From assembly GCF_964204645.1 (NCBI RefSeq), contig NC_134025.1, positions 24,892,001 through 24,956,000 on the forward strand: DNA of 64,000 nt, read 5' to 3'. This document shows, piece by piece, positions 23,301-37,002 of the stretch. Origin of the DNA: Tubulanus polymorphus (taxonomy: Eukaryota; Nemertea; Palaeonemertea; Tubulaniformes; Tubulanidae). Position 1 is the stretch's first letter. Each line of letters begins with the position of its first letter. The notes below the pieces were generated by a model that was given only the letters and a program-made list of their open reading frames with translations, did not search any database and was not told the DNA's origin. The position numbers were made by a program, and so were the translations under genes.

Positions 23301-24853
23301 TTTCAACTCACTTTGCATCAGCGACACTTCATCATTCTTTTGTTTAAGCTGAGTTTCCAAATCATTAATTTGTGTACTTAACTCATTTATCTGAGAGAGA
23401 ATGAATCAAACAAACAATGAATGAAGTACATAAAAAAAAGCCTTTGATTTACATGTATCGGTAAACTGGTACTCACAATATCTTGCTTTTCCTTTTTCGT
23501 TTGACGTCTCAAATCTTTCATTTGTTGTTGCAATTGTTCAATCTGAAATTGATACATAAGTACATACATAAAAACAGCAAAAAGTATCTAAAAGTATCTA
23601 TCAGGCCTATCCCGATGATTAATAACCTGGTCATCTTTTTCCTGGTCTTTGCGACGAAGGAATGTAACGACGTCGATAGTGTCTTTTTCCGTCTGCTGAA
23701 CTTGTGTATGTAGGGTTTCATTTTCAAGGAGCAGACGTCGAGAATTATCCCTGAAAAACAAATTTTATTGATTATTGATTTAAGAGATAGTGAATTTGAT
23801 CAAGAATAAGTGGGATTTTCAGTACCGGTACTTACTTGTATTCAAGACGGGACTGTTCCAATAAGTTCAATCTAGTTTCCCATAGTTTCGAATTAGCATT
23901 CGCAATCGCTATCTTGCTATCTCCCTTCTTTGCCTTGTCTCCCTTCTTCCCCTTCTTTCCTCCCTTCCTATAAAAGTCGAACAGATTAAACAGATTTTTC
24001 TAAATGCGAGGGATCTTGATAAGATTTTAGAAATAATTCTTTGGTAATCGAACATCTGTCATATGAAAATGTAATCATTATGGATTTATGGAGGAACATC
24101 GATAATTAAGTACATGCTAAATACGAAACTAATTGACATTCACTATTTAGGTCTAACATAAAGTAAAAGCTTAGAGTATTTGGTTGGTGGAATAATTCAT
24201 CTGAAACCTAAATAAAAGACTTGCTTCACAAACGTATGTCACACTGCATTTCTGTGATAACATTGTGAAACGTGAAACATTGAGTATATATCTATTTGTT
24301 CAAACCATGCATTTGATTTGGGTATGTTCACCACATCAGGGAGGTGGGGAAAAAGTTAGGACAGAGAGCAACCCGGTCTGAGTACATTCAAAATGGGTCA
24401 TCCTTATTACCGAGATGACGTCTTTTACCGAGATGAACCGAGACGAACCGAGATGAAATGAAATATAGCATATTTATTTATTCCTTATCGATTTTAACAC
24501 TTGAAATCATGTTATATCAGTAATAAATACCTTCTAGAGTCATATTTTACATATTTTTTTTAATAAGGATGACCGTTCAAAATGTGCCAGTTTCTTTAAG
24601 TACTTACGACATCCCTGAGAAAGAAACGTCAGAGCCATAACTTTCGTTATCGCTACTGACAGTCGATGAAGATCTAGTTAAGATGAATAGATCGTCAGTT
24701 AAGTAAAAAAGAGAGCACAAACATAGCTAGGCCTGCTAATTATAATGTTAATGTTACCTCTAACTAATAAAAAGAAATTTGATTGGATTTTTTTTCAACT
24801 TACCCCTTCTTTCCACCCTTCTTCCCCTTTCCCTTCTTGCCCTTTTTAGGCAT
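20350..24853 (-). CDS. BBOF1: BBOF1 (CCDC176), basal body orientation factor
   Basis: Coiled-coil basal-body/axoneme protein of motile multiciliated cells that keeps basal bodies aligned. Thirteen exons, high to low: 24804-24853, 24608-24673, 23836-23967, 23627-23750, 23477-23542, 23247-23390, 23092-23172, 22921-22991, 22443-22656, 22032-22303, 21249-21401, 20742-20930, 20350-20470; 1683 nt, 560 aa (human 529). A Lys/Gly-rich start (MPKKGKKGKGKKGGKK) precedes a long coiled coil, about residues 60-440. Motifs shared with vertebrate BBOF1 include RTEMERFFLESLQQVK, EFPKIRTF, STNSV and DLTWEQKERVLRYLFAKMNG (about 468-487). A short acidic tail follows. Divergent from SETD3 over 286 bp. Confidence 0.95.
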
Positions 24854-25139
24854 TTTTAACAAGCGACTGTTTTGTTACATTAGATCAATTAATCGTACGA
24901 AGAATGCTGACTTCGTTCAGCAATCGATGAAATTAATAAAATAACACGTAAACTCGGAAACTAAATTTGACAGCTGATCGCCATGTTTACCATGGAAACA
25001 GTAAACAGTCTACACTAATATGCGGAATTGGACTTAAAACGTAAACTGACCAGGCTAGGCGGTGCTTTCGTCGATTATGGCAAATAGAAGTATTAAGTTT
25101 CACGGTATTTAAATTGGGCTGTTGCTTTTTTTGAAAGAT
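24854..25139. promoter_or_regulatory. Divergent promoter: BBOF1 / SETD3
   Basis: 286 bp between outward-facing start codons, the shortest shared promoter here. A gene of multiciliated cells and a broadly expressed one share it. No core motif stands out. Confidence 0.5.
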
Positions 25140-28100
25140 ATGGGAAAGAAACATCACCCCGGTCGAGCAAATCGAATCACTGCGAACACAAAAGCATTGT
25201 CTACTCACGTGCAGCTTTTGTTAGAAAGTAAGTTCGACAAAAAAGTTTAGTTTCTCTCCTGAAAGTAGGTTCACTCACTCATGACTCACAATGTGTCTCT
25301 GCAGACGGTCTGAAATCTTCGATCCTCGCTGGTCTGTACTTTTTTCACACCTATTCCTGCCAACCCAGTCGTTTCCTCAGTTTATCATTTAATTCTAGAA
25401 TGCAGCAACCCTCTTAATAATGGGTCAAATGACTGGAATGATCATCTTGAAATTAGAGACATCATTGAAAAAATCAGGAAATTACAAGAAGGTAAAATTT
25501 GTCATTTATAGCTTTATATAGGAAGGTAGTCGGTAACCTGTCTGTGGTTTAGTTTCACGATTGGATATTTTCACAAACCATAAGCCCATCTGATTATAAA
25601 AAGCTTACCACCAACGATGTAGGTAACTAACTAATAGGAAGGGGGCTAGAGTCTTCAACTTCGTACTAATTTGCGGAGCGTTTTAAAGTGGATTTCTTTT
25701 CAAGGTAAAGCGCTTATTCAAGAATCTAGGGAGGAAAGCCTTAAAGAATTTCTGTCATGGTGTGAAAACAATTTCAACACGGAAGCTGTGTCCATAGCTG
25801 AATTTGATCTGGAGGGGTATGGCTTGAAAGCAACCAGAGATATAAAGGTCAGTTTAAAAAAAGGATTGTAAATGGCGCCTCATTGAGTGAAGCTGTCTTT
25901 CCGCTATTCGTCTCAAATATAACTTAATAATTTTGATTTATTGATTATTGATAATTCTAGAGTGCAGAGTTGTTTCTTGAAATTCCTCGTAAAATGATGA
26001 TTACTTCCGACTCAGCCAAAGCATCTGTTCTCGGTAAATAATAAGCATATAAAACAGAATTTCAAAATAGTTACAATGAATTAAAAAAATGGTTTTAAGG
26101 AGCTTTTTTGTTATTTCTAGGTCAGCTGATATCACAAGATAAAATACTGCAGATTATGCCCAATGTCGCATTAGCTCTTCATTTGTTATGCGAAAGGAAC
26201 TTAAAGAATTCATTCTGGAGAAATTATATCAGTATCCTTTTGTTTATCAGAACTTTACAATACTCTTTAGATAGCGTTTCATTGAATTTTATGGAATTTT
26301 AGATATCTTTAACTCCATTTCATCAGATATATTACCCGAAGAATATACGACCCCTTTATATTTCTCATTAGAAGATCTTGTTTTGCTCAAAGGATCCCCT
26401 ACTCTTAGTAAGTAGTTAACCCGGACTTATGATCTTGAATATTGCTGAATTGTTAGTTGATAGTCCTCATAAAAAAATTAAATCAGAGGCTATAAGAAAT
26501 GATACCTTGTTTCTCCTAATCGGCCGGGTCACTTTTGTTAATTGCAATATAATTTGTGATCAGTCAATTTCTATAGCTGCCGGGTCTGTTATAGTTAGCT
26601 TGATCATGATTTTTGAAAAAGTAATGTACAAAGTTAGGTAGATAGGCTGCCAGGTCGGTCTTAGCTCAACAGAAAGGATAAACAAGGTACATGTTGTATC
26701 AAATTTTCTGAAATTTTTCTTATATTTATCAGGTGAATGCCTTGCTCAATATCGGAATATTGCCAGACAATATGCATATTTTTACCAGGTTTTTCAGGTA
26801 GGCACTGATATTCATTCAGAAATATCTCTTCATTGATGTTAGCTTTTCTTATTTTTAGTTCATTACTTTCATTAGTGACATTATGTTGCCCGTTATTTTG
26901 CAGCCATTTTATAATTAGTTCATGGTGAGTGCGAAAGCGAAACATGAATCCTTAAAAATTAATCTTAACATATTTGGCAGCACTTCGTTTCTGATTTTTA
27001 ATTCAATCAAATTGAAATGATTATATACTATTCAACATACAAGATCGTTGATATCACTACACTTGTGGTCAAAAAAGGACTCACAATTTTCAAAAACGTA
27101 CCGTAGTAAGAATTCTGTTTGATTTTAATGGTAAGTAGGTACCTGTCATGACAACAAATGAATTTAGTGTGTTGAAAACCAAGTACATGCCATTACAACC
27201 TTGTCATAATTTGATTTGATTTTTTATTCTAACTTAATTTGATACTTAACTGTGCACTGTACATTGTACACTTGTGGTTTGTAATGTTTTACTACTGGTG
27301 ATGGTTGAGTAATGGATCTATTTTGAGTTTTCTTATCTGAGTCATTTTTCTCTCTCTCTCTCGCTCTATGTCTTACTCAGTAGTGGTGTTAAGCCTCTAT
27401 CTCTGAAGTTAATTTTTTGTCTCTTCTCAATGGTGCTCTGTCAGTCTTATCTGCTGTGGTTACTTCGCAAAAGGTTAATGATTTCAGTTCAAACAAATTA
27501 TTTCAATTATCATTCTGATAGATTTATTTCAAAAACTTGACATGCATATGGTTTATCCATTTTGTTATAACTACTACGCCGATATGTTTTTCTTCTAAAA
27601 AGATATTCCCTTGACTCATTGATATTCCTTTATGTAGCATTAGATATCTCTGACTAACTGTCCACATTAACATTTGGTTACAACACTATCTTATTGTAGT
27701 AGTTATTTACCCTTGTGGTAGTCTGTAAGTAATGATAAGTTGTATGTCTTTTAAGAATCACCCAAGTGCCAAAGATCTCCCTCTTCGAAAACAGTTCTGT
27801 TATGATGATTACAGGTAAGTGGTCACCTTACAGTTACTGCAGTAAGAATTCTCAACATGGATTTCTCCAAGTTTTCATGCCTTGATCATCTAATTCAAGA
27901 CTATCATTTTTGTTGATTATTAGTCTTTTAACATATTTAGTATACATGTATATAAGTAGTGTACTAATAATAATTGCTATGATAAAAACACTGATGCTTG
28001 ATGTGGCTATTATCATTTCTTTACTGCTTATGAACTGATTTCGTGGATTTGAACTTGTAACATTATTTGTTGTTGAAAAGTTAGAATGAACTGTTATATT

Positions 28101-31041
28101 GTTCTCCCATATTTCAACATTTTCAGTTATCTTGATTGAACTTATATTGTAAGTTGGATAAAGATATCGGTAATTGCTCCACTTTTTATTATCATAACCA
28201 ATGTTGGTTTTATCCAAAAGTTCATCATTGGAATTATTCCTCTGGCTGGATATTTCCATAATTTCAATTTCCTTGGGTGCTGTAAAATTTGTCCATTCCC
28301 TCGACAATGCACTCCTATTTTGGAAACTTGTGTTTTTATCAGATTCTTTTTCACTATTTCCAATTCTCAGCAGTTGAATGTATGAAGTTTGCTTCTTCTG
28401 CTGAAATATTCGAGTTACATGGTGCTTTTCATGTCTGTATTTCGATTCGTCTGAATCAACTTCATAAAAAACCATTTGTTTTTCCTGATTTTCAACTTTT
28501 CTCACATCCTCACTGGAATCTGCTGTTTGAGACAAAACATTTCCATATTTCCAAATGTCGCTTATGTCTATTTCAAAATGTTCTATTTCAGCAAATACCA
28601 TTCTACTACCAAATCTTGCCGCATTTGTTTGATATTCTATAATCGCTAATAATATCCACCAAATTTCATTCCCCTTGTAATTCATTTTCCTGGAAAGAAT
28701 TGTTAGACTGAATCATTCGGCATTAACATTTCTGATTAATCAATTACTTCCGCCCCTTATTTAACTTACTTTCTTTGATCAGTAGAAATGCTTGCTGCCT
28801 CATGACTGATAACATATCCATCTGATTGCATGATCTAGATGTTTTGAAAATTTTTTCATAGAAAAATGTAACTGCGCAGATTTTGTTGTTTACTACGACA
28901 GAAAGTTATGTAATGAATTTGACTTACGATGTCGGGTAGATGGGTAAATATTAGCCGGACAAATTCAAAGTGCTGGAACACCTACTAGCCCTGTAGGTGA
29001 TCGATATTGTGTCAGACAGTGTAATTGCTTGATTTCCTGTCTAGAAATGTTTCTTTTTTATCAGAAATGTTAAAGTTGATGTTTGTTTGGGTTGATACTG
29101 GCTAGTCTGATACAGAGGCATATAATATAATCAACCAATCATTTGATCTGGTCTGAAAGCTGGACATTTTCATTTGTGGACCATTCATCAGTTAATAATA
29201 GATCTGGATTCAAACCAAGGACACCAGTAACTTAACTGGTTTCAGTTAAAAATCTTACATCTTCAAAAACCACTTATCTTATATCAAAAGCTTGTGCGTG
29301 TCTAACAATTAGTTTCCTATGTGTTGATGTATGATTTTTGTGCTACATTTCTTAGGTGGGCTGTTTCAACTGTGATGACAAGACAGAATCAAATCCCTTC
29401 TAAAGATGGCAGCCATTTGATCAGTGCTCTCATACCACTGTGGGATATGAGTAATCATTGTCACGGTGAGGTAGGTATTAGGTTGATAAAAACAAGGTCA
29501 TTTGCTTCTCAGCGTACTGATATTAAGTTTTAAACCGGACCGTGTAGTTTCCTAGCTTAAATAGACTGGTCATTTATATTTGTGTTAAAATGAAGTCTTT
29601 TCCTTTCTTTGATTTTCTTCAGATCACTACTGATTACAGCCTGGAAAAAGATTGCAGTGAATGCTATGCCTTACAAGATTTCAAATTGGATGAACAAATC
29701 TATATCTTCTACGGTGCTAGATCTAATAGTGAACTACTTATTCATAGTGGATTTGTGTATGAAGACAATCTGTATGACAAATTATCTATAAAATTAGGTA
29801 ATTTTGAAAGTTGTTACATTAACAGGTGTAATTAAAACTTATCGGTGGACTATTCACAATGTGCTTCAATTTCTTTATAGGTATAAGCAAAAATGATGCA
29901 TTGTATAAAAAGAAAACTGAATTATTGATGAAGTGTGATGTCCCTCAGTAAGTTCCATCATGCAACTTTTTATGAGTCCCAAAAGTTAATTCAATGGCAT
30001 TCATTGCCTACCAACCCAAATTCATCTTTTTGAAGCTAGCCTTTTTGGCAATTGTCGATGAACTAGCCATTAGATTAGTTTGTGAAACCGAGCCTAGGTT
30101 TACAGTCTAAATTATTTCAGGTCGAAATCTTTCTGTCTACAAAATGGCCCTAACCCTGTGGGAATAGATTTATTGGTGTTTTTGCGAGTTTTCTCTATGG
30201 ATGAAGGTACACCTCGCTAACATTCTCTGAATGCATATTTTGTTATGAATCATATTTTGTTTGAAATTTTGTACTTCATGTATATCCCTAGCAACATTGT
30301 CTTCATATCTTGGTGATGGTACTGAAATTCATGATTTCCTTGAGAAATTGAAAAACCCTCATTCAAATCTTTCAAAAGAGAATGAAATGAAAGCTTGGTC
30401 ATATCTCGAAACTCGAGCAGCACTTCTCATGAAATCATATCCTTCATCTGTTCAGGTAGGTTTTGAATATATTCAGAATAAGATTAAGAACAACTGATTC
30501 TATTAAGACGATATTTGTCAGACTGAATTAAAAATTAAAGCATGTTTTACTTTAAAGGAGGATGAACAGAATTTATCTAGTCCTGATCTATCACCGTCTG
30601 GTCGATCAGCCATTCAGTTGACCCTTTGTGAAAGGCAGATTCTGAAGAAAACGATTAATTTTGCCGCTCAACAAAAGCTGATATTAGCAGAAGTAATTCC
30701 TGGTGTTGAAGTTTGTGGTGGGGGTGATTGACTAGATGATAGTTCTGATGAAGAAGAATCAAATTCTTCTTCAATTGTAAGTTATCATTACCTAATATTG
30801 AATAATATTTCAATGACAATGGTTTATGGTTTTATTTCATATTTTTCAGATCACAGAAGAATCTGCACATATCGATGCACAAACTGATGTATCAGTGGAC
30901 AAAGATAACGGTCCTGAACAGTCAGTCAGTAGAGCTTATACTGATCCAATTAACTATGATCGAACCTGCATGCAGAAACTATTAGCTAAGGGAGGACAGT
31001 CTTTACAAGCTATCGATCTAACAGAATGTTGTGTGATGTGA
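25140..31041 (+). CDS. SETD3: SETD3, actin-histidine N-methyltransferase, with in-frame UGA and 3' extension
   Basis: SET-domain enzyme that methylates His73 of actin. Fifteen exons: 25140-25227, 25399-25491, 25705-25847, 25961-26033, 26121-26231, 26327-26407, 26733-26797, 27756-27814, 29356-29470, 29623-29797, 29881-29947, 30121-30206, 30292-30455, 30558-30776, 30850-31041. Residues 75-300 are the SET region (GLKATRDIK, ELFLEIPRKMMIT, SVMTRQ-type segment, LIPLWDMSNHC, EQIYIFYGARSNSELLIHSGF split over the text); 325-450 is the Rubisco-LSMT-type substrate-binding region. The Asn in RQNQIP and the Trp in IPLWDM, tied to histidine specificity in human SETD3, are kept. A TGA at 30729-30731 ends the frame at 497 aa; beyond it the frame stays open for 78 codons across an intron to TGA 31039-31041 (576 aa with readthrough; human 594). 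Confidence 0.93.
25528..25635. repeat. Dispersed repeat, copy A
   Basis: About 105 bp, roughly 85% identical by eye to 62861-62960. It runs from AGTCGGTAACCTGTCTG through AGCTTACCACCAACGAT to GGTAACTAACTAAT. It lies in the second intron of SETD3. No ORF or obvious terminal repeats. Confidence 0.75.
27852..28685 (-). CDS. Orphan single-pass membrane glycoprotein nested in SETD3 intron
   Basis: A 277-codon intronless frame on the strand opposite SETD3, wholly inside its intron 27815-29355. The N-terminus MNYKGNEIWWILLAIIEYQ looks like a signal peptide. An ectodomain of about 200 residues is rich in charged residues and N-glycosylation sequons (NTS, NRS, NFT, NNS, NIS, NIT, NFS, NVT). One membrane span follows (about 224-250, VFIIAIIISTLLIYMY), then a basic stop-transfer patch and a short cytosolic tail. 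Just 5' of the ATG the minus strand reads TCTTTCCAG, so a 5' UTR intron is possible. A minus-strand AATAAA lies at 27533-27538. I do not recognise the family; a type I glycoprotein is read from composition alone. Confidence 0.6.
   Translation of the reverse strand: MNYKGNEIWWILLAIIEYQTNAARFGSRMVFAEIEHFEIDISDIWKYGNVLSQTADSSEDVRKVENQEKQMVFYEVDSDESKYRHEKHHVTRIFQQKKQTSYIQLLRIGNSEKESDKNTSFQNRSALSREWTNFTAPKEIEIMEISSQRNNSNDELLDKTNIGYDNKKWSNYRYLYPTYNISSIKITENVEIWENNITVHSNFSTTNNVTSSNPRNQFISSKEMIIATSSISVFIIAIIISTLLIYMYTKYVKRLIINKNDSLELDDQGMKTWRNPC
30729..30731 (+). promoter_or_regulatory. Leaky stop context UGA-CUAG in SETD3
   Basis: The first in-frame stop of SETD3 is TGA followed directly by CTAG, the tetranucleotide context known to give efficient readthrough in animal mRNAs. 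The next exon junction is 45 nt downstream, inside the usual 50-55 nt limit for triggering nonsense-mediated decay, so the transcript may escape decay either way. Confidence 0.65.
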
Positions 31042-32897
31042 TGTTGATTTGTACTTTATCTGTATCTGTGAAAAAGTTAAATCAAAATATGTACTATATC
31101 GGTCTATTTCTAGAGTTCAATCAAAATTCATATCTGATCTGTGTCTGTTGTAGTTGTTGAATCAAAATTTGTACTTATCGATAAGGAAAAAAATGTGAAT
31201 CTATTTTTCATCTTTATCATTTTGTATAGTCTAGTGTTGTCATGGTACATAATCCAGTATTACACAATTTGTTCCAGCCGACATGACTAATAACTTGCCA
31301 TTCAATAGTGAAAAGCAAGATTGAAATTGTTAAATTTTTCTAAAAGAATTTCTACAGTCTAAAGTTGAAATGACCCATGACACAGGTTCCGATGTACTTC
31401 AGGATGCGGTTGGACCCTTCCGGGTAGTACAGTCTCTTTTATACATGGTGCTTGATAAAACTCAAATTAATAGGGTATATGAAGGGTATTATGACTTAAT
31501 GTTTGAGATTTTGTAAATATGTTCCTGTTAAATCTTATCACGTATTTGATAAAACCTGTTGACATGGAAAAGTAGAACTCACTTAATTCAGATAACTAGG
31601 GACTGCCCAGATTTCTTTGAATTAAGTAAAATCCGAATTATCAATAATTTACATGGTTCCAGGTTAAAAATTATTTCATCCGGAATAAAAATCTGGAGTA
31701 AAAAATTAAGTGAGTTCTACCGTAGTACTATTATTTGAATGCAATACATGATAACCTACTACTGAGTAGATATTTTGTAGTTCAAATCAGGTGGTGAAAT
31801 GTTTCATTCGATTCATAAAATGTCCTATTTATCTCAAATTAAATGATTCTCATTTTATTTTATGTTTTCTTATTTTCTAATTATTGGACATATTGATATT
31901 GTATTTATCCAGGTTTTTACTTACCGGGTATTTTATAGGTAAGAAGTTGTACATTTATTGCAGAAATTTTTAATGGATTGTTGTTGCTTATATCATTTAC
32001 TACTAGTTGTTTTTGCTAAAGTTGCATGCTTTTAGAAATATTAAAAGTTTGTTCGATAACTTTTTGTATTTGTATCAATTCAATGTCTATGCGTAGTATT
32101 CTACTTGTTTGCAGTCTTGGCAAATAAATTCAGAAATCAAATAAATGATTTGATCCAAAGAAATGAATTTTGTAATGTTTTTTCTAGTATTCCTGATGAG
32201 AAAACATCTACTTAAGCTTCTTGTATCTATTCAAGTCATGAATCGGATCTACCGCGCAGCATTGATGCTGTTACTTAAGTTCGAGCCCCAGTAATGTAGA
32301 CTAACGATTTTCGGGAGATTTGGATATTCTCGGAGCTACCCATTACTTATTTTCGGTGGTAACGAATACGACTAAACCCTAGATTAGATTCAAGGACGCC
32401 GACCGCTGTCAAAGTAACGTTTTGGACTGATCAATTATTCAATTGATTAAGAACATTAATGACACCAGGAGTATTTCTTCTGACTGCATTATTTATATTT
32501 CCTAGTTTCTTATACGTGGTGGCTGTTAACTGAGGTAAAAACTTATTTTTGTGACCCCATTGTAGGCCACAAAAATGAAAGTAGTCCGGGGACCGGGGTC
32601 TGATTCTTTTACTTTTCTAATTTTGGGCATATTGTTTTCCTGTTTGCTTTCCTATCCACTTTGATGAAAACATGTATAACCTAAACCTATAGCCTTAGTA
32701 TCACAGGGCTCGTATCAGAGCTGTAGGTACTGTAAAAATGATTATTAATGGATTAACAGATTATCGTTTTTACAGTGTAGTTTACCTACAAAACTCTTGA
32801 TGAACCCCCGTGCTTAATATCAAAAATACATAAAGACGTTATGTATTTTTGTAAATATTGATAAATTCCATCACTGCTTTTCGATTATTTTTTTCAG
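31042..32897. other. 3' region of SETD3 and 5' region of PIGH
   Basis: No gene found. It contains a MITE near 31570-31723, AATAAA at 32123-32128 as the probable SETD3 3' end, and PIGH upstream sequence. The acceptor-like TTTTTTTCAG ending at 32897 suggests a PIGH 5' UTR intron begins somewhere here. Confidence 0.55.
31570..31723. mobile_element. pogo/Tigger-like MITE
   Basis: The left end AGTAGAACTCACTTAATTCA is matched by the inverted right end TTAAGTGAGTTCTACCGTA. About 150 bp, non-coding, in the 3' flank of SETD3. Confidence 0.65.
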
Positions 32898-32900
32898 ATC

Positions 32901-32918
32901 ATGATTATGTACTGCTAA
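32901..32918 (+). promoter_or_regulatory. uORF (MIMYC-stop) abutting the PIGH start
   Basis: ATG ATT ATG TAC TGC TAA starts 3 nt after the presumed splice acceptor and stops one base before the PIGH ATG (TAA-T-ATG). If the acceptor is used, ribosomes meet this five-codon frame first; reinitiation or leaky scanning would be needed. Confidence 0.5.
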
Positions 32919-32919
32919 T

Positions 32920-33913
32920 ATGAAGAAGTGTCAAACTCATTCAAATAATGGAAATGTATTGCATGGCTTACAACAAGAATCTGATAAATATGAATATCAT
33001 ATCGATGGTTTAATATTGGAAACTAAACATCATGCAATTGATAGTTGTTCAGAGTTCCTAGTCAGGAGAGCAAATGCTGAACATAGATGGTATTGCATAT
33101 TGACTCTATTCGTGTTATCAGTGGCAGTTGTCAAGTATTACTGCTTACTTCAGGTACCATGGGTCTAGATTTAAATGTCAGGTGATGCTACAATTTCATC
33201 AAATGAGATACAATTTAGACTTACTTTATTATCTTTTCTGCAGGATCTGATTTTCTACTGTATGCCTGCTATTCTGGCGATTACATGGCTTGCGTTTCAA
33301 CACACCGCCGGTAAATAATGCTCATACCTCACGAGATATCTCAAGGGATTTTTTGGAAGTTCAGGATTTTTCAAATTATGTTTTTTTCAGAATCGATACT
33401 TGTGATAAGATCTGTTGGTGTCCAACTGACAACATGGAGATTCTTTTATCAAAAACAGACAATTTATATCCCTATACATCGAATAAAGGACATTGTTATA
33501 ACTGAAGTGATAACTATGGTAAGTTTACTGAAATTTCCCTCAGGACGCGGTATTATGATGAGTTGAAACCTTCATCCTAAATCTAGGTCTTCTCTTGATG
33601 AAAGATGGATAGAATGTGCTTGGTGAAAAGTGAAGAAAAAAACTATTCATAATCACTTTATTCAATTTCTATTCTTAGCATCAAATAAAATATTTTCTCG
33701 TGATGATATATAAAGATGAGGAAGAAATATTTCAAATTAAACCTCTATGTACGGTAAGCAACTGCAAAAAGAACTTATGGGCATATAATTTTTATGGGTC
33801 ACAGTAATTTTGATTGTACAAAGTGTACTATTTTGTTCATTTTTCAGACATTTAAACCACGGTTAGAAGCTTTGAAGATTATTTACCAAGGAATTCAATC
33901 TGTTCTCAGATGA
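32920..33913 (+). CDS. PIGH: PIGH, subunit H of GPI-GlcNAc transferase
   Basis: Endoplasmic-reticulum membrane subunit of the complex that makes GlcNAc-PI, the first step of GPI-anchor synthesis. Five coding exons: 32920-33153, 33244-33310, 33391-33518, 33679-33753, 33848-33913; 570 nt, 189 aa (human 188). A hydrophobic hairpin lies at about residues 58-98 (LTLFVLSVAVVKYYCLLQ, FYCMPAILAITWLAF). The conserved PIG-H domain follows: SVGVQLTT, IPIHRIKDIVITEVI, YFLVMIYKDEEE and KPRLEALKIIYQGIQ. It runs in the same direction as SETD3, the one break in the strand alternation. Poly(A) signal at 33995-34000. Confidence 0.94.
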
Positions 33914-35121
33914 CAAATGCTTTTCCTAAGTAATTCTTTGTCTCTATAGATCTTTTGTACCATATTTTTATTTATGCTTGATCCACAATGAATCAATAAA
34001 TATATCTATATATAATTTATTAAATCCTTGTAATTCTCTTTTCTTGCACGTCTTGTCTCAGCAATAGTCACTTCTTCTGGGGACCTGAAAATCTATTTTT
34101 GATGTGCGTATTGATAAGAATGTACAGTACATGTACCTGTATAACTAGTCTACTCCATAAGGAAAATCCTCATACGCCGACTCCCAACAAATCTATCAGT
34201 GTGTCCGTAGGTAATTGAGAAATCATGTTACAATATATTAGTGGAACCTCGTTATGGTGAACTCGGATACGACGATTATCAGATGGAACAAATGCCAAAT
34301 AAGAGAATTTAATTGATTCCATACTGGATATAACAAACTATCAGGTTCGCTGTTACAAGGTTCCACTGTAGATGGTTTATAGTCCTAAAGAATGTTCTCA
34401 TCCATGCTACTTCGAGGGTAACCGATTGTAAGTTGATAAGAACTAGAGATCTGTCCAAATAGGACCCATCAGCCATCAATTTCTCATAAGAAACAACAAC
34501 TAGACAGGACATGAAATGAAAATAACTGAAAAATCTTTTATTTGAGAATTTCTTATTCTTTTCTAACATAATTACATCGGAAAGAAGATGAAACGAAAAT
34601 ATTCAAGGACTGACTACCACAGCTTTTTAGTTTTTTTTTTTACGGATGAATCAAAAAGTCAGAAACCTTATTTACATCATAATACATGTACCGGGGTATA
34701 CTTAACTAAATCTAGAAATTCATTGTTGAAGACGATGCATAATTAACAAATGAGACACAATTTTTCATTAGCACATTTACAAAGAAATGTTTAACACATT
34801 GTGGAATACCATTTTTTACCAATCATATATACATATCAATTGCGATTATTTTTCCAAGCTGTGAATCATTCTGATAATAATGTAGTGTGATACTATGATC
34901 TATAATCAATGAACAAAAATATATCCCATCATATTCAAGCAGCTTCCATTGGCAAGAACTGTCAGTACAGCACAAAATAATCACACATTTCATAAACTGT
35001 ATAATTTGTCTAAAACAATGCCATCTTTTTAATCTGTCCCCAATTTTCGCGAGTGATATCAAATTCTTCCTTTAAAAGGATAGAGCATAGTAAAATCTTT
35101 ATTTCAAAAAGGGCTAGAATT
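33914..35121. other. Convergent 3' region: PIGH / ST13
   Basis: No gene supported. PIGH polyadenylation signal AATAAA at 33995-34000; MITE at 34241-34368; minus-strand AATAAA for ST13 at 35098-35103, only 19 bp past its stop codon. Confidence 0.65.
34241..34368. mobile_element. pogo/Tigger-like MITE
   Basis: Left end GTGGAACCTCGTTATGGTGA; right end reads, inverted, CAGTGGAACCTTGTAACAGC. TA flanks the right end. The same family recurs at 40506-40681. Confidence 0.65.
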
Positions 35122-36282
35122 TTAATCGACATCTTCAGAAGACGGAGGTGGTGGTTTCGGTTTAGTTTGATCAGCACCAACCCCACCAGAAAATCCCATC
35201 TTCTCTGCTAATTTTGTCAGAACATTCATGATCTTTGGGTTGGATTGATATTTTGCCATGTTTGCTGGATTTTGGCTAACATCCTGGAATGCGGCGGCGA
35301 TTTCTTGGTCATTGAATGCCTCCATCAATTCTGGATCGCTAAAAAGTTTTGTGAAATCCATTCCACCTGGCATTCCACCCATACCGGCCATACCTGGCAT
35401 TCCACCCATACCACCTGGCATTCCACCCATACCACCTGGCATTCCACCCATACCAGGAAAACCGTGAGGCATACCATCACCAGAACTGTGGCGGGTCTCC
35501 TCTCGATCTTTTTCTTCTCGGGCGCGTCTGATGCGTTCTCTTTTTTCTTTATCTTCTTTGTCTTTCTTCTTCATTTCTCGTCTGTGTTTGTGGTCTTTGA
35601 TTTTAATCGAATTCGGCTGCACTTCTTTCAACCAAGCGATCGCTTCTTCATCGCAGTCGAGTCTATTAGCGATGCACAGATCATCGGCTGCACGCTCCCA
35701 TTCTCCTTTCAGACGATACGCTCGGCCTCGCCACTTGTACGCCATGAACGAATCGCTGTTGATTTCGATAGCTCTATCGCAGTCTCTAATCGCCGCGCTC
35801 GGTTTGTTCAAGCGGACGTACATACTAGCGCGCTTAGCGAATAACGGCGCGCTATGAGGGTCCAATTCAATCGCTTCGGTTAAACATTTAATAGCTTCCT
35901 CGATGTTATTATCAGCCATGAAGACTTGCGCTTCTGATCTTTTTTCCATAGCTTGAGAGTGCTCTTCCTCGGTAGCCATCTTGCTGTCATCACCCATCGG
36001 TTGGATCACATCCTGTTCGTCGTCGATGACGCCTTCATTGTCGACATCGATGTCGCTCTCTTCACTTTCTACTGAAACATGCTCTGGTTCGGGTTCTGGA
36101 GCTTTCGTCTGGTGACTTTCCCAAGCAGTTTTCTTTGCAGCAGTGGGAATGGTTGCGCCAAGACTTTCCACGTAGTCTTTGAAGAAGGAAAGTTCTGGCT
36201 TGTGCAGAATATCAGGGTTTAGCCGACACATCTCGATGAACATCTTCAGTTCTTCAAGTTCTTTTACTCCAATACCGGCCAT
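35122..36282 (-). CDS. ST13: ST13 / Hip, Hsc70-interacting co-chaperone (single coding exon)
   Basis: Cytosolic co-chaperone that stabilises ADP-bound Hsc70 and joins Hsp70 to Hsp90 clients. A 386-codon uninterrupted frame (human 369). The N-terminal dimerisation helix covers residues 1-40 (LEELKMFIEMCRLNP). An acidic segment follows, then three TPRs (about 112-215, MEKRSEAQVFMADNNIEEAI onward), a highly charged region (about 225-265), GGMPGGM repeats (about 275-310) and a C-terminal STI1/DP2 domain (about 312-365, SDPELMEAFNDQEIAAAFQD). Vertebrate ST13 has about a dozen exons; here no coding intron remains. TTTTTTAG just 5' of the ATG suggests a 5' UTR intron. Minus-strand AATAAA lies at 35098-35103. 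Confidence 0.96.
   Translation of the reverse strand: MAGIGVKELEELKMFIEMCRLNPDILHKPELSFFKDYVESLGATIPTAAKKTAWESHQTKAPEPEPEHVSVESEESDIDVDNEGVIDDEQDVIQPMGDDSKMATEEEHSQAMEKRSEAQVFMADNNIEEAIKCLTEAIELDPHSAPLFAKRASMYVRLNKPSAAIRDCDRAIEINSDSFMAYKWRGRAYRLKGEWERAADDLCIANRLDCDEEAIAWLKEVQPNSIKIKDHKHRREMKKKDKEDKEKRERIRRAREEKDREETRHSSGDGMPHGFPGMGGMPGGMGGMPGGMGGMPGMAGMGGMPGGMDFTKLFSDPELMEAFNDQEIAAAFQDVSQNPANMAKYQSNPKIMNVLTKLAEKMGFSGGVGADQTKPKPPPPSSEDVD
35373..35457. repeat. Short tandem repeats encoding GGMPGGM
   Basis: Near-identical units around CCACCTGGCATTCCACCCAT within ST13, giving the Gly/Met/Pro-rich linker. Confidence 0.8.
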
Positions 36283-37002
36283 TTTTCCAGATCTAAAAAA
36301 TGCAAAAAATTTCGCACGTTTAATTAAACAGTGTCTAAAAACATCAAAAATTATTACAGCTACATTAACAAATTATCACTGTCCAATTACGAATTTATTT
36401 TGTACGTTTTGTGCACCATCTATCGGGCATTCACATGATTCTAATCATTGTTAAATACGCAAAAAATATGTTGCATAGTATGTGCATTTTCGGGAATTAC
36501 TTACATAAATGTGGTATTACCGTGCGTTACGAGTGAAAAACGGCTTTAGAAATGAGAATCTGCAGCAATGGGTGAATCGACACGCGAAAAACGAACCCGC
36601 TGTAACGATTCTTAATTCTGGAAGGTTCCAACCGACACGTAATTTTCAAGGTTGTTTTTGATTGACCTTATCATCCAATTTCTGAATGAATAATTACAAA
36701 TATAATATCTTCAAGTATCTAAAATAGCGAATTGCCGTAGAACCCTAAAATGAAATTCGACATGTTTAGCAAAACACATTTTAGCCTGGCCGAAAATTTC
36801 AGGGGTGGAAATTGCACTTCGTAACCGAAAACGAGAAAAAAAATATTGTGGGGACGCAATAATGGTTGTCATGAAGGTTGTTGAAAGTTAGGACCCCAAC
36901 CGATCCAAGCCATTTAATCCATAATTAGCCAATGGCTTTATTTGTCATTACTTGCATTAAAAACATTAATGCAAGAGCTTTGTGGTCACTGCCAACGAAA
37001 AC
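36283..37002. promoter_or_regulatory. Divergent promoter: ST13 / AFG1L
   Basis: 720 bp between starts. It carries a perfect three-unit heat-shock element at 36616-36628 and two short inverted repeats: AAGCCATT/AATGGCTT (36907-36914, 36931-36938) and CTTGCATTAA/TTAATGCAAG (36951-36960, 36966-36975). Confidence 0.55.
36616..36628. promoter_or_regulatory. Heat-shock element (HSE)
   Basis: TTCTGGAAGGTTC contains three alternating pentamers (TTC-nn-GAA-nn-TTC), the HSF1 consensus, 334 bp 5' of the ST13 start and on the same shared promoter as AFG1L. Match is seen directly; use by HSF is inferred. Confidence 0.6.

Follow-up and report, generated by a model that had tools for sequence, protein, structure and literature searches.

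The question raised by the SETD3 locus of Tubulanus polymorphus is whether the UGA that ends its main reading frame always terminates translation, or whether some ribosomes pass it and add a C-terminal tail. We find that programmed or leaky readthrough of this stop, which stands in a UGA-CUAG context, is the best single reading of the locus, with a probability of roughly one half; the odds assigned to this and to the competing readings are judgements and were not computed. All coordinates are positions within the window, the 64-kb stretch of NC_134025.1 that was analysed, and the genome assembly comprises 268 Mb in 77 contigs.

SETD3, the gene for actin-histidine N-methyltransferase, occupies positions 25140–31041 of the plus strand and was delineated from the gene model, comparisons with PDB and Pfam, and a copy check. 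Its 15 exons comprise exons 1 to 8 (25140–25227, 25399–25491, 25705–25847, 25961–26033, 26121–26231, 26327–26407, 26733–26797 and 27756–27814) and exons 9 to 15 (29356–29470, 29623–29797, 29881–29947, 30121–30206, 30292–30455, 30558–30776 and 30850–31041). Every junction of the rebuilt gene is GT-AG, and a single uninterrupted frame runs up to a TGA in exon 14, in which the coding part before the stop (30558–30728) specifies the last helix region of the core. This core matches human SETD3 in PDB (E 2.5e-115), and both the SET and the Rubis-subs-bind domains were found with Pfam, as expected of an actin-histidine methyltransferase. No second copy, retrocopy or haplotig of the gene was found in the genome, and the search for relatives in the viral and prokaryote contig sets returned none. 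Two further open reading frames lie on the minus strand. A stop-to-stop frame of 286 aa inside SETD3 intron 8 (27852–28712) is a possible nested gene; it encodes one hydrophobic, transmembrane-like stretch and has no Pfam family above the cut-off. A single-exon stop-to-stop frame of 416 aa (35122–36372), which by eye we take to be Hsc70-interacting protein (ST13), is perhaps an intronless gene; the human ST13 gene is intron-rich.

The position of the stop relative to the folded enzyme bears directly on what termination there would yield. The match to human SETD3 ends at human residue 485, 18 residues upstream of the TGA, which places the TGA at about human residue 503. A human fragment spanning residues 2–502 binds and methylates actin and has been crystallised (PMC6400499). 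With the TGA at the edge of this active core, the 497-aa form should be the full enzyme, judging from the alignment. A stop at the edge of the core is compatible with a tail that is added only sometimes, and equally with a dispensable tail that has been lost.

The TGA (30729–30731) is in the SETD3 frame and is followed directly by CTAG, so that the element at 30729–30735 on the plus strand corresponds to the base with what the preliminary description had reported. TGACTAG occurs only once on the plus strand of the window, and the SETD3 stop is an in-frame stop within a known high-readthrough context. In vertebrates UGA-CUAG has been validated as a readthrough motif: all four genes confirmed by Loughran et al. 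lose readthrough upon deletion of CUAG, and MDH1, which carries the motif, is read through at ~3.5% in human cells (PMC4132726). Since only 4 of the 23 human genes with UGA-CUAG have conserved extensions (PMC4132726), the motif alone is no proof. Two further points count against the SETD3 case, namely that a U at position -1 is associated with reduced readthrough and that abundant readthrough has been inferred for Pancrustacea only (PMC5100048). A search of the readthrough literature for SETD3 found nothing relevant. The distance from the TGA to the last exon junction is 45 nt; under the 50–55 nt rule for nonsense-mediated decay, a stop so placed should not trigger decay.

Downstream of the stop the frame stays open for 15 codons (LDDSSDEEESNSSSI, 30732–30776), crosses intron 14 (30777–30849, 73 nt, phase 0, GTAAGT...TTTTTCAG) and continues in exon 15 (30850–31041) for 63 codons to a final TGA at 31039–31041. 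The donor (ATT/GTAAGT at 30776) and the acceptor (TTTTTCAG/ATC at 30850) preserve phase 0. The complete tail, LDDSSDEEESNSSSI-ITEESAHIDAQTDVSVDKDNGPEQSVSRAYTDPINYDRTCMQKLLAKGGQSLQAIDLTECCVM, consists of an acidic, serine-rich linker followed by CCVM. The open codons on both sides of the in-phase junction 30776/30850, the terminal TECCVM and the product lengths of 497 aa to the first TGA and 576 aa with the extension had all been proposed before, and all were reproduced in the rebuilt gene. Intron 14 itself has no in-frame stop, and a form retaining it would also be open after the TGA, with a different tail end, YRCTN. From the TGA to the 3′ end of exon 15 there is no AATAAA or ATTAAA, and the mRNAs therefore probably include exon 15; the first AATAAA after the stop is at 31684–31689.

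Several measures suggest that this open frame is more than an accident. A run of 78 open codons, a long extension, has a chance of 0.25% when estimated from the noncoding parts of the window and 0.48% under a Markov model, and an equally good intron is found within ~200 nt of the stop in ~1.2% of random stretches. The amino-acid make-up of exon 15 is protein-like, outscoring about 97% of the noncoding stretches that lack stops (a chance of ~2.5%), and its protein-likeness score, taken against a general reference composition of proteins, falls inside the span of values for SETD3 or exceeds it. By codon usage the extension cannot be told from noncoding sequence, as 21% of stop-free noncoding stretches score equally high; this measure is uninformative because the body of SETD3 itself barely exceeds noncoding sequence on it. 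The extension has no match in PDB, full-length human SETD3 included, or in Pfam. The closeness of 576 aa to the 594 aa of human SETD3, to which the preliminary description had drawn attention, is thus a likeness in length and not homology. Together, these properties suggest that exon 15 is coding now or was until recently.

A further element, which goes beyond the preliminary description, is a perfect 11-bp RNA hairpin with a 3-nt loop (30749–30773, plus strand; arms 30749–30759 and 30763–30773), 17 nt after the stop. In the minimum-energy prediction for the spliced mRNA, seven further pairs that use exon 15 bases lengthen it: the 5′ arm of this extended stem (30737–30743) begins at +9 from the U of UGA and pairs with 30774–30776 and 30850–30853. 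Since these partner bases are split across the 30776/30850 junction, the extended stem can form only in the spliced mRNA. Such a hairpin at a distance of 5–40 nt is found at 0.17% of plus-strand positions, and 0.7% of synonymous recodings contain one of at least 11 bp. Shuffling of codon order yields such a hairpin in 2% of cases, the runs of GAA and TCT codons favouring the stem; GAA runs are common splicing enhancers. Overall, the sequence downstream of the stop does not fold with exceptional energy, as 10% of synonymous recodings reach the same total. In Drosophila dfr, a stem-loop from +9 to +59 drives readthrough, and both its distance and its stability matter (PMC13170385). The SETD3 hairpin departs from the rules of the Drosophila screen for stem-loops (at least 35 nt, a loop of 3–10, bulges of at most 2) in length and bulge: the +9 start of the extended stem and the 3-nt loop fit, whereas the bulge-free hairpin measures only 25 nt and the extended stem carries a 5-nt bulge.

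The same genome provides a precedent. Its MDH1 gene (L036:1639–1662; region G000:C1:9573200–9573334) ends in ...MSFVQ, TGA CGG, RANSRL and TAG, that is, with a hidden peroxisomal PTS1 signal behind UGA-CGG; PTS1-like ends make up 0.29% of the ORF ends in the window. The MDH1 readthrough extension with its hidden PTS1 is conserved across animals down to Hydra (PMC4207609). Because the sequence matches this known animal case, it is very probable that at least one gene of the T. polymorphus lineage relies on UGA-C readthrough, in a context that differs from that of SETD3.

The tail end CCVM conforms, as sequence, to the C-a-a-X pattern of prenylated proteins. PRL-3 has exactly this CaaX, which is needed there for membrane localisation, the first Cys being the key residue (PMC2635958). 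Among the 2890 ORF ends of the window, 9 are equally CaaX-like, which makes CCVM notable; as many other motifs could have been looked for, it is not decisive. Basic residues are absent near the CaaX of SETD3, a point against the readthrough proposal. A PRL-type phosphatase gene in the same genome (minus strand; L037, G000:C8:9835232–9835348) ends in KPCCIQ, resembling the CC-a-X prenylation end of human PRL-1; this suggests that the species employs such CC-a-X ends. In Drosophila, the readthrough extension of Syx17 carries a predicted farnesylation signal (PMC3840789). Prenylation of the SETD3 tail and tethering near cortical actin remain suggestions.

Readthrough is favoured by the combination of the in-frame UGA-CUAG, an open frame unlikely to arise by chance, the position of the stop at the edge of the core, the hairpin, the MDH1 precedent, the decay-safe position and CCVM. 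The proposal of readthrough in the preliminary description thus gains from the validated vertebrate motif, the hairpin, the protein-like tail and the MDH1 precedent, while translation of the long form, its prenylation and its cortical location found no support. What makes readthrough less certain is that two in-frame splice routes reach the same tail. If the tail is normally reached by an mRNA lacking the TGA, the TGA-containing form would be a separate short isoform with a true stop, and we regard such alternative splicing, which is absent from the alternatives named in the preliminary description, as a serious rival, possible though on balance unlikely. Exon 14, at 219 nt, begins and ends in phase 0 and is thus symmetric; skipping it keeps the frame but would delete the final segment of the folded core. 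The other route uses a possible alternative donor of phase 0 at 30692/30693 on the plus strand (GAA/GTAATT), which when joined to 30850 removes the TGA and leaves the frame open to the CCVM tail. This donor resembles that of exon 10, likewise GTAATT, and outscores the donor at 30776 on SETD3's own matrix (5.57 versus 4.24), but is the weaker of the two on a generic donor matrix (3.47 versus 5.65). No alternative acceptor scored within the extension before 30776. Published practice also leans towards splicing: where an exon break interrupts the second ORF, readthrough is accepted only if the stretch ahead of that break is coding in its own right, and Jungreis et al. generally invoke splicing when the stretch from the stop to the exon break does not score as coding (PMC5100048). 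In SETD3 this stretch is the 15 codons of LDDSSDEEESNSSSI. However, alternative splicing leaves the CUAG, the hairpin and these 15 open codons before the junction unexplained.

A recent stop gain would account for the open, protein-like extension and its in-phase intron without any recoding. The ancestral protein would have had 576 aa, and a nonsense mutation, whether fixed or still polymorphic, would have removed a dispensable tail; the position of the tail outside the catalytic core is compatible with this. The CTAG would then be coincidental (base composition gives it a chance of ~0.3%, and CTA by itself 1.9%), the hairpin would have to arise by chance as well, and we therefore consider a recent stop gain quite unlikely. 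That the extension was never coding, with stop, open frame, intron and CaaX all products of chance, would agree with the non-significant codon-usage test and with a tail that matches nothing in PDB or Pfam, but would have to combine the open frame (~0.5%), the good intron (~1.2%) and the protein-like composition (~2.5%), and is improbable. Much the same holds for an assembly or sequencing error that turned a sense codon into TGA, which we judge very improbable. The sequence comes from a single assembly with a G5 run just upstream, and with a single SETD3 copy in the genome there is no second haplotype for comparison; yet a lone indel would have put the two sides of the TGA in different frames, whereas the frame is identical before and after it, so that a substitution error would be required. 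A-to-I editing of UGA to UGG, an alternative raised in the preliminary description, can practically be set aside despite the hairpin in the region, as the predicted stem of the fold starting at the stop does not include the target A, which also has a 5′ G, the neighbour least favoured by ADAR. Decoding of the UGA as selenocysteine was rejected, as Rfam gave no SECIS match in 24000–34000 even at E 5.

Returning to readthrough, the sequence itself establishes UGA-CUAG, the open frame, the complementarity of the hairpin arms with its rarity in this DNA, and the match of CCVM to the PRL-3 CaaX. From these we infer the following course of events, from the recoding itself and the action of the hairpin to tail prenylation and any cellular role. 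The main frame of SETD3 would end at a leaky UGA-CUAG at which most ribosomes terminate and release the complete 497-aa enzyme. A minority, a few per cent as expected from the vertebrate motif, would insert an amino acid at the UGA, aided by CUAG and probably by the downstream hairpin, and would add 78 residues forming the acidic serine-rich linker and then CCVM. A farnesyl group could be attached to this end and keep part of SETD3 at membranes. The fullest version of this scheme, in which a conserved, hairpin-assisted UGA-CUAG readthrough gives a farnesylated, membrane-held SETD3, and a single mRNA thereby serves both a soluble and a membrane pool of the enzyme, is considerably more tentative and we hold it to be doubtful. 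If real, readthrough of SETD3 would bring an enzyme of the cytoskeleton into the known set of readthrough genes, combine in the same mRNA the vertebrate CUAG motif with a hairpin of the insect type, and offer a testable route to localised actin histidine methylation. MDH1 of the same genome is a built-in positive control for readthrough tests.

Compared with human SETD3, the T. polymorphus gene is orthologous throughout the core, up to about residue 502, and has the same SET and Rubisco-LSMT substrate-binding domains; the human tail, in contrast, is encoded to residue 594 without an intervening stop and has no CaaX, its C-terminus being VKE. With Drosophila Syx17 it would share a C-terminal prenylation signal exposed by readthrough, although Syx17 was detected by ribosome profiling and is another gene with another motif. 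The predicted SETD3 stem also begins at +9 after the stop, like that of Drosophila drifter (dfr/vvl), but it is a shorter, predicted stem interrupted by a 5-nt bulge, whereas dfr is an intronless gene with a UAG stop and a conserved, experimentally tested stem-loop. Unlike the vertebrate UGA-CUAG genes, whose extensions are conserved or measured and whose confirmed members lack conserved RNA structure, SETD3 has a hairpin and an extension that is predicted from the sequence and crosses an intron. It nevertheless shares with OPRL1, OPRK1, MAPK10, AQP4, MDH1 and LDHB of vertebrates a CUAG straight after the UGA and an open in-frame extension, and in vertebrate MDH1 and LDHB that extension carries a localisation signal, as the CaaX-like tail of SETD3 might.
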